From the NCBI RefSeq assembly GCF_002309535.1, contig NZ_CP023275.1, forward strand, positions 1,860,001 through 1,924,000: a stretch of DNA of 64,000 nt, read 5' to 3'. The position numbers and the translations under genes are program-made. How positions within the stretch are numbered: position 1 is the first letter of the stretch; each line of letters begins with the position of its first letter. The notes beneath the pieces are model-generated. The model searched no databases and had not been told where the DNA came from. It worked only from the letters and a program-made list of their open reading frames with translations. Positions 20,292 to 38,119 of the stretch are shown piece by piece. This DNA comes from Sulfurospirillum diekertiae (lineage in GTDB: Bacteria > Campylobacterota > Campylobacteria > Campylobacterales > Sulfurospirillaceae).

Positions 20292-20324
20292 TTTACATGT
20301 AAAGTTTAAAATCTTTACATGTAA
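20292..20324. terminator. Palindrome pair with a 10-base spacer between convergent genes
   Basis: TTTACATGTAAA at 20292 and TTTACATGTAAG at 20314 have a period of 22 bases and can pair to a stem of about 12 bases with a short loop. It lies between the ends of the PAS-like gene (+) and the hxlR-type gene (-). On the minus strand it is followed by GATTTTTTAGG, a good U-rich tail, so it can terminate hxlR transcription. Confidence 0.6.
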
Positions 20325-20335
20325 GATTTACTTCT

Positions 20336-20710
20336 TTACGCATTCATACACGATCCATCATCAAATACTTCGCTCTCTACCCTATGCTCCTTCCCCCATT
20401 CGTACATCAAACTCAGGATAGGAATGACCGATTCTCCCTCTTTGGTGAGCGAATATTCTACCTTTGGTGGAACTTCATTGTACTGTTCTCTGTGAATAAT
20501 ATTGTTGCTCTCCAGCTCTTTAAGTTGTTGACTTAATGTCTTATGCGCAATCGGTTTAAGTAACTCTCTGAGCCTATTGTATCTTATGACACCTGCTCTA
20601 CTAATTTCCCACAAGATAATCCACTTCCATTTTCCCTCAAGAATCGACATCGTATAATACATTGGACATTTTTCGTATTTATCCGTGAAATTTTGCACTG
20701 TTTTCTCCAT
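20336..20710 (-). CDS. HxlR-family transcription regulator
   Basis: The 124-residue winged-helix protein has the HxlR pattern: CPMYYTMSILEGKWKWIILWE (Cys15 near the start), IRYNRLRELLKPIAHKTLSQQLKELE and VEYSLTKEGESV. Such regulators often respond to aldehydes or oxidants through an N-terminal Cys. It is divergent from a flavodoxin-like reductase gene, and an inverted repeat lies in the shared promoter region, so it probably controls both genes. Confidence 0.9.
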   Translation of the reverse strand: MEKTVQNFTDKYEKCPMYYTMSILEGKWKWIILWEISRAGVIRYNRLRELLKPIAHKTLSQQLKELESNNIIHREQYNEVPPKVEYSLTKEGESVIPILSLMYEWGKEHRVESEVFDDGSCMNA

Positions 20711-20719
20711 TACTTCCCT

Positions 20720-20740
20720 TTTAGTTAGTATATAACTAAA
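20720..20740. promoter_or_regulatory. Likely operator of the HxlR regulator
   Basis: TTTAGTTA and TAACTAAA form a perfect inverted repeat around GTATA. It lies in the 101-base region between the two divergent genes, 10 bases ahead of the hxlR start. A second, weaker AT-rich repeat (ACTTAAGTTATATA) follows at about 20755. Confidence 0.5.
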
Positions 20741-20811
20741 AAGTTCATTCTATACTTAAGTTATATATTACTCTATACTTCCATTTGTCAAATGATTGAG
20801 AAGGAAAAGAT

Positions 20812-21495
20812 ATGAAAATTGTAGCCATCAATGGAAGTCCTCGTAAAAATGCCAACACAGCAACCTTGCTGAAGCATGCCCTCAAAGGTGCAGAAAAACA
20901 GGGTGCTCAAACAGAGCTCGTACATCTTTACGATTTGAATTACAAAGGATGCGTGAGCTGTTTTGCATGTAAGCTCATAGGTGGAAAATCGTATGGAAAA
21001 TGTGCCCATAAAGATGAACTCAAACCGCTTTTAGAAAAGCTACGAGACGTAGATGCCATTCTTTTAGGTTCACCCATTTATTTTGGAAACATCACTGGAA
21101 TGATGCGCTCTTTCATCGAACGCTTAGCATTTCAATATACCCTTTACGATGCCAATTACTCCTCATTATTTCCCAGAAAAATACCCATAGGATTGATGTA
21201 TACAATGAATTTAGATGAAAAACGCATGCGAGAATGGGGTTATGTTGAAGCACTTCAAGGTCTTGAAAAAAGACTTGGCAGTATATTTGGCTCTTCTGAA
21301 GCACTTTATGTCACCGATACCTACCAGTTTAAAGACTATTCTAAATACGAAGTAACCGCTTTTAGTGAGGAACTTAAAGCAAAAAGACGGAAAGAAGTGT
21401 TCCCACAAGATTGCGAAAAAGCGTTTGATATGGGAGAGAGATTTGTCACCAATGGTGTTTCATCTACTTTTTGCAGTGAGCATGCTCCGCATTAA
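20812..21495 (+). CDS. Flavodoxin-fold NAD(P)H-dependent oxidoreductase
   Basis: The 227-residue protein starts with the FMN phosphate-binding loop NGSPRKNANTATLL near residues 6-19 and has GSPIYFGNITGMMRSFIER near 85. Two Cys near residues 47-51 (CVSCFAC) match the iron-sulfur flavoprotein/NADPH FMN reductase type, though the full cluster motif is not certain. Its substrate may be a quinone or other electrophile. The HxlR regulator is divergent and is probably the partner regulator. Confidence 0.85.
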   Translation: MKIVAINGSPRKNANTATLLKHALKGAEKQGAQTELVHLYDLNYKGCVSCFACKLIGGKSYGKCAHKDELKPLLEKLRDVDAILLGSPIYFGNITGMMRSFIERLAFQYTLYDANYSSLFPRKIPIGLMYTMNLDEKRMREWGYVEALQGLEKRLGSIFGSSEALYVTDTYQFKDYSKYEVTAFSEELKAKRRKEVFPQDCEKAFDMGERFVTNGVSSTFCSEHAPH

Positions 21496-21508: not shown

Positions 21509-21542
21509 TTTACATGTAAAGTTATTTGGCTTTACATGTAAA
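21509..21542. repeat. Palindrome pair, left copy of a 34-base direct repeat bracketing the zinc operon
   Basis: Two TTTACATGTAAA copies (21509, 21531) are separated by GTTATTTGGC. The same 34 bases occur without mismatch at 25564-25597, on the other side of the zinc uptake genes. The bases just outside differ. Confidence 0.85.
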
Positions 21543-21570
21543 CAAAAACAAATTAAAAAAATTTACGTAC

Positions 21571-21590
21571 GACTTAGTTGCATAATGATA
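21571..21590. promoter_or_regulatory. Candidate zinc operator ahead of zevA
   Basis: GTTGCATAATGATA is nearly identical to the sequence ahead of znuA (GTTGCATAATGTTA at 24593-24606), and the preceding bases (ACTTA against ACTCA) also agree. It is about 35 bases ahead of the zevA start and may bind Zur. An in-frame TTG inside this site was not used as a start for this reason. Confidence 0.5.
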
Positions 21591-21625
21591 AACTACCCAT
21601 CATAAAAATTATAGGTAGACACTTT

Positions 21626-22189
21626 ATGCTCAAAACTCTATTTATCTTACTTCTTTCGTTCAATTTTGCCTATTCTTGCGCTCTGTGCGGTAATGGTAAA
21701 GCCTCTTTTGTCACGGTAGCCATGAACGCGTATTTTGCAGAGGATAAAATCGAAAAAATACATACGCAGTGGAAATTTGATTCAGGTACATCCAAAGACT
21801 TTAAACAATTGTACTCAGAAAAAATCCTCGCATCTGATAAAAAGAGAATGTATGATGGACTCGAAAATTTCCAAGTACCCTACTTCATGACTTCTATTAT
21901 CATTAATGGAAAAAATATCTCTTTTAAAGCTGAAAATTTTGACTTATCCTTTGATCACAATATCGTCACTATAGAATTTGATATACCCCTCAATTACAAC
22001 CTAAATGATAAAAACAGTGTCGAAATTATCTTTGTAGATTCAACCAAAGCGATCGTGTTTCTAGAAAATCTTGACAATCTTGACATTAACAATTCAACGA
22101 ATTACACCATTAAAAAGCTCAATGGCTTCAAAGTGATCAAAGAGCTCGTCGCAACCGTCAATTATATTAAACTAGAGATTTCTAAATGA
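21626..22189 (+). CDS. zevA: ZevA-like periplasmic protein (DUF1007 family)
   Basis: The 187-residue product has a signal peptide ending near SFNFAYSC and then CALCG, followed by the DUF1007 core (IEKIHTQWKFDSG near residue 45). The family partner is always a NicO-type membrane protein, encoded here with a 4-base overlap. In Haemophilus influenzae this pair (ZevAB) supports zinc uptake. The usual N-terminal His-Pro-His stretch of the family is replaced here by the Cys pair, which is of note. The ATG at 21626 has AGG(T)AG ahead and a clear signal peptide; earlier starts overlap the operator. Confidence 0.75.
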   Translation: MLKTLFILLLSFNFAYSCALCGNGKASFVTVAMNAYFAEDKIEKIHTQWKFDSGTSKDFKQLYSEKILASDKKRMYDGLENFQVPYFMTSIIINGKNISFKAENFDLSFDHNIVTIEFDIPLNYNLNDKNSVEIIFVDSTKAIVFLENLDNLDINNSTNYTIKKLNGFKVIKELVATVNYIKLEISK

Positions 22190-22956
22190 ATACCAACTAT
22201 ACAGCTGAAATGGCGCTACTGTTAAAAAATTTAGCGATTCAGCTAGGAACGTTGTTGGAAAACATTAAAAACGAGCACAGTGTATTGTCCATTATTTCTC
22301 TTTTAACGCTTTCTTTTATGTATGGCTTAGTGCATGCAGCAGGACCAGGGCATGGCAAAACACTGGTGGCATCTTACTTTACCTCTAATGACAAAAATTA
22401 TAAAAAAGCTTTGAGCTTGTCATTTATGATTGCAACCGTGCATACCTTTTCAGCGCTGATTCTAACGTACGTTTTGTATTATCTGTTTCAAAATATTTTT
22501 TCAGTCGCTATCCTTAACATTGCCGACATTGCAACGAAGATTTCAGGTGCTCTCATCATCAGTATTGGTGTGTATTTGTTGTATGGGAAATACAGACATT
22601 ACAAAAGCACAAAAACGCTGCAATGGAGCACTCAAAAAATAGCTTCATGCAATTGTGCAAGTTGCAAAACGCAAAACTCAACCGATGTGGCTTTGGTCTT
22701 AGCCGCTGGACTCATACCCTGCCCAGGTACAATCACGGTATTTTTATTTTCCATCTCACTGGGGCTGTACTGGATAGGCTTTTTAAGCGCTGTCGTGATG
22801 AGCCTTGGCATGAGCTCAATTATTGCAATAACTGCTTTAGCGAGTGTTAAAATTCGTAATAGCTCAAAAAATAGGTATTCTAAACTCTTGAAATATCTCG
22901 ATTTTGGGGCGACGTTCATTATTATTATCTTAGGACTTATCCTCATTTTAAATTAG
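22186..22956 (+). CDS. zevB: ZevB-like membrane transporter (NicO/RcnA family)
   Basis: The 256-residue protein has about six membrane segments and the family signature HAAGPGHGKTL near residue 46. A loop near residue 155 is Cys-rich (CNCASC), and AAGLIPCPGT near 178 is a second conserved family block. NicO proteins carry nickel, cobalt or zinc. Its overlap with a DUF1007 gene and its place ahead of znu-type genes point to zinc. Direction of transport cannot be read from sequence. Confidence 0.8.
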   Translation: MNTNYTAEMALLLKNLAIQLGTLLENIKNEHSVLSIISLLTLSFMYGLVHAAGPGHGKTLVASYFTSNDKNYKKALSLSFMIATVHTFSALILTYVLYYLFQNIFSVAILNIADIATKISGALIISIGVYLLYGKYRHYKSTKTLQWSTQKIASCNCASCKTQNSTDVALVLAAGLIPCPGTITVFLFSISLGLYWIGFLSAVVMSLGMSSIIAITALASVKIRNSSKNRYSKLLKYLDFGATFIIIILGLILILN

Positions 22957-23000
22957 AAGTCAGGAACATATGCAATTATTAAAATTAAAAAAGGTACAAC

Positions 23001-23750
23001 GTGGTATTAAAAAACTTTAAAGACAATGTCATTGAAGCAAAAAATTTAAACTTTAAAACCATTATTCAAAATGTGACATTTGACATTAGACGAGGCGATT
23101 ATGCGGCGATTATTGGGCCCAATGGCGGGGGGAAAAGTACGCTGGTTAAACTTCTGCTTGGGCTTATTCCCTACGACACTGGGACGATTAAACTCTTTGG
23201 AAAAACACCCACGTTGAGTGCTTTGAGAAAGATAGGCTATGTTTCGCAAGGCATCTCAAAGTTGGATGAAAATTTTCCCATCAGCGTTCACGAAGTCGTC
23301 AAACTCGGACTCATCGCCAATAAATCTCTGTTTGCAAGCATCAATCGAAGCGATTTGGAGATCATTGATCGTGCTTTAAGGAAGATGAATATCGAAGATT
23401 TGAAAGACGCCAAAATCAGCGAACTCTCAGGCGGACAGCGCCAACGCGTGATGATCGCCAAAGCGCTAGTGAATAACCCACAAATCCTCATTCTCGATGA
23501 GCCCAATACAGGCGTTGACAAGCAATCCCAAATCAATTTTTACGCCCTTTTAAAAGATTTAAATGTCAAAGAGAACATTACAATTCTTTTTATTACCCAT
23601 GATTTAGGTGTTATTGTCGATGATATCAACAAAGTTTTGTGCATTAACCAAACACTTTTAGCCTGCCACGATCCGCGCCAAATCTATCATTCAGAACAGT
23701 TAAATCAGCTCTATGGCGTTGATGCGCACATGGTTTGCCACCATCATTAA
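23001..23750 (+). CDS. znuC: Zinc ABC transporter ATPase, ZnuC-like
   Basis: The 249-residue ATPase has Walker A GPNGGGKSTL near residue 39, signature LSGGQRQRV near 139 and Walker B LILDEPNTG near 160. It ends with the His-rich tail HMVCHHH common in zinc-type ATPases. The start is GTG at 23001. The gene is followed by the permease gene with a short gap, and both fit the ZnuABC/MntABC family. Confidence 0.88.
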   Translation: MVLKNFKDNVIEAKNLNFKTIIQNVTFDIRRGDYAAIIGPNGGGKSTLVKLLLGLIPYDTGTIKLFGKTPTLSALRKIGYVSQGISKLDENFPISVHEVVKLGLIANKSLFASINRSDLEIIDRALRKMNIEDLKDAKISELSGGQRQRVMIAKALVNNPQILILDEPNTGVDKQSQINFYALLKDLNVKENITILFITHDLGVIVDDINKVLCINQTLLACHDPRQIYHSEQLNQLYGVDAHMVCHHH

Positions 23751-23758
23751 GGATTGAT

Positions 23759-24559
23759 ATGGAAATTTTTCAATACACATTTATGCTCAAAGCCTTTTTA
23801 GCAGGCACATTAATCGCCGCCATCGCCTCTTCTCTTGGCATGTTTGTGGTCGTCAAACGCTTTTCAATGCTCTCAGACGCGCTTGCACATATTTCACTCC
23901 TTGGCGTGGCAATTGGCTTTCTCACCTCCATTGCACCCAATTACAGCTCTATTGCATTTACCCTTTTAGCGTCATGGGTGATTGAGTATTTAAGACAAAA
24001 CAATAAACTCTACTCCGATTCGATCCTCTCTATCTTTTTATCGGGATCTTTGGCGCTTGCCATCATCATCGTATCGGCTTCTGCATCGTTTAACACCTCT
24101 TTGTTTGACTACCTTTTTGGCTCAATCGTTGCGATTGATGACACGGATATTATGATTATTGTGCTTTTAGGATTGATCTGTACCGTGACGTTGTATGCCA
24201 ATTTCCAACGCTTTTTATACATCGCATTTGATGAAGAGAGTGCGAAAGCTTCGGGCATTAACACCAAACTCTTAAACTACCTGCTCATTTCCTTGGTTTC
24301 GGTGGTCATTAGTGTTTCGATTAAAATCGTGGGGGCACTTTTGATTGGCGCGATGATGATTATACCTGCCATCATTGCCATGCAGTTTAGTCAAAATTTT
24401 AAAAGCTCTGTGGTTTATGCGATCATCATATCAATAGTTTCCGTCATTTTGGGTCTGTTTATCTCCTACTATGCGTCCTTGCCTAGTGGCGCGACCATTG
24501 TTGTTTTGCTCTTGTTCTTTTTTATGATTTCGCTTGTATTCAAGAGGAAACAGTATTAA
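23759..24559 (+). CDS. znuB: Zinc ABC transporter permease, ZnuB-like
   Basis: The 266-residue protein has eight or nine hydrophobic segments and the family block FVVVKRFSMLSDALAHISLLGVA near residue 28, with the conserved DALAH. The ATG at 23759 has AAGGA just after the znuC stop. Together with ZnuC and ZnuA it forms a complete importer of the metal-ion ABC-3 type. Confidence 0.9.
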   Translation: MEIFQYTFMLKAFLAGTLIAAIASSLGMFVVVKRFSMLSDALAHISLLGVAIGFLTSIAPNYSSIAFTLLASWVIEYLRQNNKLYSDSILSIFLSGSLALAIIIVSASASFNTSLFDYLFGSIVAIDDTDIMIIVLLGLICTVTLYANFQRFLYIAFDEESAKASGINTKLLNYLLISLVSVVISVSIKIVGALLIGAMMIIPAIIAMQFSQNFKSSVVYAIIISIVSVILGLFISYYASLPSGATIVVLLLFFFMISLVFKRKQY

Positions 24560-24582
24560 TTTTTTTAGAGTGACTCTTTTAT

Positions 24583-24609
24583 ATGCAACTCAGTTGCATA
24601 ATGTTATGC
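24583..24609. promoter_or_regulatory. Two overlapping inverted repeats ahead of znuA, candidate Zur site
   Basis: ATGCAACT-C-AGTTGCAT (24583-24599) and GCATAA-TG-TTATGC (24596-24609) are both perfect inverted repeats sharing four bases. The second resembles AT-rich Zur/Fur-family boxes, and part of it is repeated ahead of zevA. The site lies 29 bases ahead of the znuA start and could repress it under zinc excess. Confidence 0.55.
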
Positions 24610-24637
24610 TTTCGGTATTAAAAAGAAGGAGTCACCT

Positions 24638-25516
24638 ATGTTCAAAAATTTTGCATTAGCAGCAGCCCTCAGTTCGATCATGTTTGCAGATGTATCGGTC
24701 ACCACAACCATATTTCCACTCTACGACGTTGTCAAAACGATTGGAGGCGATAAGGTCAAACTTACTAATCTTGTTCCTTTTGGCGTTGAAGCGCATGAAT
24801 TTGAGCCTAAAGCCAAAGACATTGCTGCTCTTTCAAAGAGCGATTTTTTCATCATCAGTAGTCCCGTGTTTGAGACATGGAGCACCAAGATTATCAGCTC
24901 TTTAAAAATTCAAGATAAAACGATTGATATGAGCCAAAAAGTCAAACTTATTGAGATGAAGCATTCTGAAAATGAGCATGAACACAAAGGCAGTTACGAT
25001 CCACACTACTGGTTGAGCATCAATAATTACATGAATGTTGCCAAAGAAGTAGCAACCCTGCTGAGCACCAAAGACCCTGAAAATGCCAAATTGTATGAAG
25101 CCAATTTAGCGACGTATCTTGCAAAGCTGGAAGCATTAAAAACGGATTATGAAGTGCTTAAAAGTTGCAAAAACAAAAAAGTCATTGTCAACCATGACGC
25201 TTTTGAGTATTTAGCACATGAGTATGGCATCTCCCAATACTCCATCACAGGCATGACGCCCGAGACCAAACCGTCTCCCAAACAGATTGCACAGTTAATT
25301 GATTTGACCAAAAAAGAGAAGATTACCACCGTCTTTTTTGAAGAATTTGCCAGCGATAAAGTTGCAAAATCTATCGCTAAAGAGGCCAATGTTAAAACAG
25401 ATGCACTCAGGCCCGTTGAAAATATCACCGTGGCTGAGAGCAAAAAAGGGATTGGCTATATTGACATCATGAAAGACAACCTCATCAAATTACACGATGC
25501 CATGGATTGCCAATAA
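24638..25516 (+). CDS. znuA: Zinc ABC transporter substrate-binding protein, ZnuA-like
   Basis: The 292-residue protein has a signal peptide (cut near FADV), the cluster A-I fold block FPLYDVVKTIGGDKV, metal ligands in GVEAHEFEP (His near residue 53), a short His-rich loop (HSENEHEHKG near 108), DPHYWLS near 119 and NHDAFEYLA near 186. It captures zinc or a similar divalent metal in the periplasm. It has its own promoter with the operator described at 24583-24609. Confidence 0.9.
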   Translation: MFKNFALAAALSSIMFADVSVTTTIFPLYDVVKTIGGDKVKLTNLVPFGVEAHEFEPKAKDIAALSKSDFFIISSPVFETWSTKIISSLKIQDKTIDMSQKVKLIEMKHSENEHEHKGSYDPHYWLSINNYMNVAKEVATLLSTKDPENAKLYEANLATYLAKLEALKTDYEVLKSCKNKKVIVNHDAFEYLAHEYGISQYSITGMTPETKPSPKQIAQLIDLTKKEKITTVFFEEFASDKVAKSIAKEANVKTDALRPVENITVAESKKGIGYIDIMKDNLIKLHDAMDCQ

Positions 25517-25563
25517 TCGCCCATTCAATAGATCTAAAAGTTCAAGGTATATGTTAGAAAATC

Positions 25564-25597
25564 TTTACATGTAAAGTTATTTGGCTTTACATGTAAA
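25564..25597. terminator. Palindrome pair, right copy of the 34-base direct repeat, between convergent genes
   Basis: This is identical to 21509-21542. It can form a stem of 12-13 bases between znuA (+) and the sapC-family gene (-). On the minus strand it is followed by GATTTTCTAAC, a short U-rich tail. It could serve as a two-way terminator. Confidence 0.65.
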
Positions 25598-25605
25598 GTT
25601 CTCTA

Positions 25606-26214
25606 CTACAATCCCAAGCGTCTAATATTGCTGAGTGAAATAAGATGGGCTGTGATGAAAGGGGTCGCTCCTTTTTTGCACATGTCAAGATGTTTCTTCT
25701 CACTGAGATGGCTAAGTTTTTCTTCATTAACCGTAAAGAAACCATTGATCGTATGGGTTTTGCCCTCTTCATCGAGAAGATTGGCACTTTGTTCGACTAA
25801 TAGTCCCCATGATTCTAACTCTTTAATCAAAGCGCTACATGCTTGTAATTCGCCTTGAAAGCGAACGAGAAAGTCCAATGTATTCTTCGTCAAGTCCGTT
25901 GGTGTTTTATCTTCTTTAAAGAGCGCACGTTCTTTGTTGGATTCATTTAACGCTTCCAACGCTTCCTCTTCAATGCCTAAAGAAAAGCCTTTTTTATCTT
26001 CATTTTGAACCAAAATAAAGGGATAGCGTCTCAAGAAAGCGGGAAGGTATTTGCCTCTTTTAAAGCGACGATTTTCATCCAAGTAGACATTTTTATCGTT
26101 AAAGCCAAGAAGTGCAATCGCAAGCCAGTCTCCTTCTTGATTTTTAGTAAACAAAATCGGATAATCTTTACATGCTTCGTAAACTTCTCCAATGCCCAAA
26201 GGTACGCTTATCAT
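25606..26214 (-). CDS. SapC-family protein, N-terminus cut off by a stop codon
   Basis: The open part encodes 202 residues matching the SapC family: VYEACKDYPILFTKNQEGDWLAIALLGF near residues 11-38, KGKYLPAFLRRYPFIL near 54 and INGFFTVNEEKL near 155. The name comes from an S-layer-linked gene of Campylobacter; the function is not settled. The family has about 27 more N-terminal residues, present upstream in frame but blocked by a TAA (26272-26274). Internal starts at 26214 are possible but have no clear ribosome binding site. Confidence 0.8.
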   Translation of the reverse strand: MISVPLGIGEVYEACKDYPILFTKNQEGDWLAIALLGFNDKNVYLDENRRFKRGKYLPAFLRRYPFILVQNEDKKGFSLGIEEEALEALNESNKERALFKEDKTPTDLTKNTLDFLVRFQGELQACSALIKELESWGLLVEQSANLLDEEGKTHTINGFFTVNEEKLSHLSEKKHLDMCKKGATPFITAHLISLSNIRRLGL

Positions 26215-26381: not shown

Positions 26382-26413
26382 AAAGCGGTTACACGTTTAC
26401 ATGTAACCGCTTT
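26382..26413 (-). terminator. Terminator hairpin after acs containing a palindrome copy
   Basis: AAAGCGGTTAC and GTAACCGCTTT form a perfect 11-base stem, 7 bases after the acs stop. The TTTACATGTAA copy at 26397 sits in the loop and right arm. On the minus strand it is followed by TTCCTCACAAC, a weak U tail. Confidence 0.65.
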
Positions 26414-38078: not shown

Positions 38079-38085
38079 AATCTTT

Positions 38086-38119
38086 TTACATGTAAAGACT
38101 CAAAGCTTTACATGTAAAC
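38086..38119. terminator. Palindrome pair with 22-base period between convergent genes
   Basis: TTTACATGTAAA at 38086 and 38108 with GACTCAAAGC between them can form a 13-base stem. It lies just after aguB (+) and beyond the AbiEii gene end (-). On the minus strand it is followed by AAGATTTTAGTC. It is the fourth pair with this exact spacing. Confidence 0.6.

Follow-up and report, generated by a model that had tools for sequence, protein, structure and literature searches.

A 34-bp sequence occurs twice, in the same orientation and with zero mismatches, on either side of the zinc acquisition (znu) operon of Sulfurospirillum diekertiae, within a 64,000-bp stretch of its chromosome (NZ_CP023275.1, positions 1,860,001 to 1,924,000; hereafter the window). 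We consider it very probable that these 34-mers (TTTACATGTAAAGTTATTTGGCTTTACATGTAAA; Table 1) are two copies of an element which resembles the highly iterated palindromes (HIPs) of cyanobacteria, has the core TTACATGTAA and recurs across the Sulfurospirillum chromosome, and that the znu operon is a variable block which was gained and relocated. The bracket around the zinc operon is real, but it is not particular to that operon. The element is a highly iterated palindrome that is well conserved in Sulfurospirillum and has only now been noticed; a search of non-subscription literature found no paper describing it in bacteria of this group.

The original prediction had pointed out the perfect repeat, its differing flanks, and the five genes enclosed, and all of this held, with the gene identities supported by Pfam (DUF1007 in the zevA-like gene falls just below the cut-off). 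Only two exact copies of TTTACATGTAAAGTTATTTGGCTTTACATGTAAA exist in the whole 2.81 Mb complete chromosome, and there were none among the loci fetched from relatives. Parts of the genome-wide palindromic element make up 26 of the 34 bases, and the informative part of the match is the inner eight bases, TTATTTGG. Given 12 pairs with 22-bp spacing, about 0.025 identical-spacer pairs would be expected by chance. The common spacer is therefore weak evidence for the proposed shared origin: it is not frequent genome-wide (a near match lies at 1,301,097), but a second identical-spacer case exists. In that case, two other palindrome pairs (G000:C1:1701443-1701472 and 2721901-2721930, separated by 1.02 Mb) share the spacer GGATTTTTCC with no evident cassette role. 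Recombination keeping the two 34-mers alike is possible, but recent homogenization is not required, because the two spacers of relatives are already only one or two bases apart.

The palindrome TTTACATGTAAA, present at both ends of each 34-mer, has 774 exact copies in the genome versus 0 for its reversed control, and 1220 versus 23 at up to one mismatch; among the one-mismatch sites listed, most deviate at an end base (first or last position). Core and gene-location statistics were computed from a 464 kb genome sample, with genes called by a simple open reading frame heuristic. The core TTACATGTAA was the most over-represented 10-mer of this sample, observed 202 times where a third-order model expects about 0.67, an excess of about 300-fold. 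The copies are spread evenly, averaging 8.65 per 20 kb with a variance of 7.6. Exact sites were intergenic in 64 of 139 cases (1.46/kb) and lay in genes in 75 of 139 (0.18/kb), and site density reached 2.99/kb in convergent gaps versus 0.61/kb in divergent ones. Sites in genes are read as Leu-His-Val (60/75) or Phe-Thr-Cys-Lys (15/75), the third frame containing a stop. The half-site TTTACATG occurs 374 times, and 339 of these extend to TTTACATGTA; because the remaining 35 isolated half-sites are not enriched (31.6 expected), we infer that whatever reads the palindrome is symmetric. There are 24 close pairs genome-wide, 12 of them with 22-bp spacing, which form strong hairpins (z from -6 to -7); the spacers of close pairs are often self-complementary.

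We compared the 14 in-gene sites of the window with control 10-mers taken in frame from the genes that hold them. The 10-mer was intact at 14/14 sites in G015, a genome of the same species (controls 66%, p = 3e-3), 13/14 in G022 (39%, p = 4e-5), 12/14 in G016 (20%, p = 3e-7), and 14/14 in G012 (20%, p = 2e-10). Changed sites in relatives were substitutions, and nothing pointed to insertion. The element is mostly restricted to the Sulfurospirillum family; at least one congener has lost it, and it occurs sporadically in another family of Campylobacterota. Counts of TTTACATGTAAA within the genus range from 14 to 792. In G021 the sites have relaxed into variants like CTGACATGTAAG, with ACATGT still enriched (56 vs 9.7 expected), and G020 has lost the element (10 copies of the 10-mer in 400 kb; ACATGT 93 vs 69 expected). 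Outside the family, the element was essentially absent from 249 genomes of the order, except for a few in family f17 with 86, 21, 14, and 8 copies. In the f17 genome with 86 copies (G161), 33 of 35 sampled sites lie in genes (loci L174-L183), and the rise of the same palindrome there was apparently independent.

The znu operon itself is a patchily distributed block, with two positions, empty sites, and palindromes at its borders. Of 24 congeneric genomes, only four had close ZnuA orthologues: G000 (the genome of the window), G015, G022, and G023. The remaining congeners have only a ZnuA-related protein of about 30% identity. Four genomes that lack znu (G012, G016, G017, and G019) share the order RpoD, PAS-type gene, palindrome pair, HxlR, FMN reductase, palindrome pair, SapC, palindrome, AcsA, and each empty junction holds one pair only. 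In G000, G015, and G022, the operon is flanked by FMN reductase and SapC, whereas G023 has it between HxlR and the PAS-type gene; in G022 (L115:7957-9637), znuCBA is kept and zevAB is missing. It is also mosaic, because ZnuB (72% identical to the window copy in G022, 58% in G023) is far more diverged than ZnuA and ZnuC (87-98%). When G023 is set against the empty PAS/HxlR junction of G012 or G016, the left and right junctions of the insertion overlap exactly at the palindrome TTTACATGTAA.

At the empty PAS/HxlR junction, the spacer is GTCATTTGGC in all four znu-less genomes. The right-end znu spacer is GTCATTTGGC in G023, differs from it by one change in G015 (GTCATTTTGGC) and G022 (GTCATTTAGC), and is GTTATTTGGC in G000; G022 and G023 each have a different left spacer, and G015 has GCTATTTGGC and GTCATTTTGGC as its two spacers. 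These resemblances suggest that the right-hand pair may have travelled together with the operon, but the spacers may instead have converged, because a pair 0.58 Mb away has the spacer GTCTTTTGGC, one base different. As a separate observation, G015 carries an extra segment of about 0.8 kb (L114:9660-10490) with a 234-codon reading frame in the gap between the right pair and SapC; the segment ends at a palindrome and is not present in G000.

These comparisons bear out part of the earlier suggestion that the module moved as a cassette, or that its repeats allowed it to be deleted or flipped. Empty sites with one pair were indeed found, the locus is not strictly conserved, and the operon is in few congeners and at two positions. 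The repeat, however, is not cassette-specific: most gene boundaries nearby have the same palindrome, even where the adjoining blocks never moved. The compared relatives showed no inversion of the operon.

Our explanation is that strong selection or biased drive would keep the palindrome intact chromosome-wide, and that the operon was probably acquired and later moved next to palindromes. These may have promoted recombination as short homologies, or they may simply have been present at nearly every local gene boundary. The symmetric reader could, for example, be a DNA-binding protein that acts as a dimer, or a methylation system. We tentatively prefer to see the palindrome as a mark of self or of genome maintenance, which an orphan D12 adenine DNA methyltransferase would link to CATG methylation; this is a possibility to which we give a clear minority of the weight. 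No restriction gene was recognized beside the enzyme in G000. Orthologues are present in most copy-rich congeners and absent in G020, G024, G028, G032, and G033. Median copy number is 668 in genomes with the enzyme versus 112 in those without it (Mann-Whitney p = 6e-4; 14 vs 5 genus genomes at least 90% complete, uncorrected for kinship). A related copy is carried on an S. diekertiae plasmid (L336).

The exact centre of the palindrome is CATG, and the enzyme is plausibly CATG-specific, judging from its relatives. Distant phage relatives are annotated as ulcer-associated adenine methyltransferase, the name also used for the CATG-specific hpyIM (PMC4687069). This specificity is a guess, because other relatives are annotated as FokI- or LlaI-type. 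Sequence searches found no solved structure for the enzyme, and NCBIfam assigned it to no specific family.

Several points weigh against this explanation. The enzyme is missing from G024, G035, and G161, which have many copies (271, 283, and 86, respectively), and G010 has the enzyme but zero copies. The density figures depend on heuristic gene calls. The coincidence of palindromes with breakpoints may be trivial, because every junction of the region carries palindromes. The methyltransferase as sole driver of the palindrome was rejected, there being too many exceptions across genomes. A more specific version, in which the CATG-type D12 enzyme and a symmetric reader would favour TTTACATGTAAA-bearing DNA in natural transformation or repair, strikes us as improbable. 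If true, such a self mark would have filled the chromosome with TTTACATGTAAA and made gene boundaries preferred exchange points for blocks like the zinc operon.

Alternatively, the palindrome could be the binding site of a chromosome-organizing or global regulatory protein, which we regard as a weak but serious contender. The sites are symmetric, evenly spread, and strongly conserved in genes, and the 22-bp spacing of the pairs amounts to two helical turns. However, the complete loss in G020 and sporadic gain in f17 fit an essential architectural role poorly, and no candidate protein was found.

By analogy with other systems, the palindrome might instead mark DNA for uptake or self-recognition, perhaps through methylation, with inverted pairs doubling as terminators; we think this unlikely. 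To our knowledge, known uptake sequences are not palindromic, which counts against it. The ComEC competence domain is present in 30/30 genomes, in keeping with an uptake role, but these include the palindrome-free G020 and G010, and ComEC was rejected as a discriminating gene. The D12 enzyme, whose presence accompanies high copy numbers in the genus, and its relatives of the CATG-specific hpyIM type would fit such a mark, as would the limitation of import to CtsM-methylated DNA in Campylobacter jejuni (PMC10046745). The 39.9-kb (39,868 bp) plasmid of G015, with 0 exact 12-mers and 4 ten-mers, would fit as well. Set against these are the other specificities among D12 relatives and the genomes in which the enzyme is missing. 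A scan of viral contigs for the 14-mer gave mostly single matches among the matches listed.

We find it improbable that the zinc operon rides on a specific mobile cassette whose ends are the 34-mers, whether as a target-site duplication or as recombination sites. The patchy operon, its two positions and one-pair empty sites, the exact overlap at TTTACATGTAA, and right spacers that resemble the GTCATTTGGC of the znu-less junction, as if carried with the operon, are what a cassette would leave. Yet the palindrome has 774 copies, some of them in genes, and unmoved neighbours carry it too. The left spacer is different in G022 and G023, and gene calls and Pfam revealed five transport-related genes only, with no recombinase or transposase within the block.

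A methylation-linked mutational or repair by-product, as proposed for cyanobacterial HIP1, appears very unlikely. The one-base deviations concentrated at the ends, as in HIP1 (PMC4390886), and a methyltransferase in most copy-rich genomes would agree with it, but the model needs MutS/MutL, and the MutL C-terminal domain was detected in 0/30 genomes versus 11/14 control genomes. It is likewise hard to believe that the pairs are nothing more than intrinsic terminators of transcription with related sequences: despite strong hairpins (-19.4 kcal/mol, z -6.5, for the left 34-mer and -21.8 kcal/mol, z -6.3, for the right, relative to shuffled controls), enrichment at convergent gene ends, and often self-complementary spacers, 75 of 139 exact copies lie in genes, and no clear T-run was seen 3' of either 34-mer.

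Table 1. Features of the zinc operon region and the candidate methyltransferase (window positions unless a locus is given)
Feature	Position	Strand	Remarks
Palindrome pair at PAS-type gene/HxlR junction	20292..20325	.	Same element type, other spacer
HxlR regulator (-) and NADPH-dependent FMN reductase (+)	20336..21495	.	Pfam PF01638, PF03358; order relative to znu swapped in G023
Left 34-bp palindrome pair	21509..21542	+	TTTACATGTAAA + 10-base spacer GTTATTTGGC + TTTACATGTAAA, centres 22 bp apart
zevA-like gene, DUF1007	21626..22189	+	Pfam PF06226 E 1.2e-5, just under cut-off; missing in G022
zevB-like gene, NicO	22186..22956	+	Pfam PF03824 E 1.5e-19; missing in G022
znuC, ABC ATPase	23001..23750	+	Pfam PF00005 (ABC_tran) E 2e-31
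znuB, ABC-3 permease	23759..24559	+	Pfam PF00950 E 1.3e-70
znuA, periplasmic zinc-binding protein	24638..25516	+	Pfam PF01297 E 1.9e-75
Right 34-bp palindrome pair	25564..25597	+	Identical to left pair
SapC family gene, right neighbour of operon	25606..26214	-	Pfam PF07277 E 4.6e-51
Palindrome variant within hairpin, SapC-AcsA gap	26396..26407	.	From sequence
Further exact palindrome pair of the window	38085..38118	.	From sequence; different spacer
Orphan D12 adenine DNA methyltransferase, ~325 aa	L317:5752-6729 (G000:C1:2537757-2538728)		PF02086

The word AGTTGCATAATG is common to the regions upstream of zevA and znuA (window 21582-21601 and 24588-24611) and is a candidate operator for a zinc or iron regulator.

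Among known systems, the DNA uptake sequences of Neisseriaceae and Pasteurellaceae likewise occur in hundreds of copies, in genes and between them, with inverted pairs at gene ends; the Sulfurospirillum unit differs in being itself palindromic. Intergenic repeats of the repetitive extragenic palindrome (REP) and bacterial interspersed mosaic element (BIME) type also place palindromic units, sometimes paired, at gene ends. Unlike these, the in-gene Sulfurospirillum copies are conserved by position without insertions or deletions, and were therefore not dispersed by insertion. Within the phylum, CtsM and its RAATTY site in Campylobacter jejuni (PMC10046745, PMC8627207) offer an adenine methyltransferase with a palindromic site. 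RAATTY, though, is short and degenerate, with 28,482 copies in C. coli, and so unlike a rare 12-mer. A methylation-defined self mark nevertheless has a precedent in the phylum, because C. jejuni imports only DNA that CtsM has methylated at RAATTY, which transformation needs (PMC10046745).

The closest comparison is with HIP1 (GCGATCGC) and the alternate HIPs of cyanobacteria, which share the extreme over-representation of a palindrome in coding and intergenic DNA, deviations mostly at the end bases, and loss in some lineages; the HIPs are also associated with orphan methyltransferases, as the Sulfurospirillum palindrome may be (PMC4390886). In contrast to HIP1, the Sulfurospirillum element is a 12-bp, AT-rich palindrome with a CATG core in Campylobacterota, and it strongly prefers gene ends and 22-bp pairs. 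Evidence also links HIP1 to site-specific recombination (PMC4390886), which is relevant to the borders of the znu block. The mismatch-repair model for the origin of HIP1 (PMC4390886) cannot be transferred here in its stated form, because no MutL C-terminal domain was detected, and in that form it cannot be a general explanation. What HIPs do is a question of long standing, and the congeners in which the palindrome has been lost or loosened now provide a natural comparison for it.

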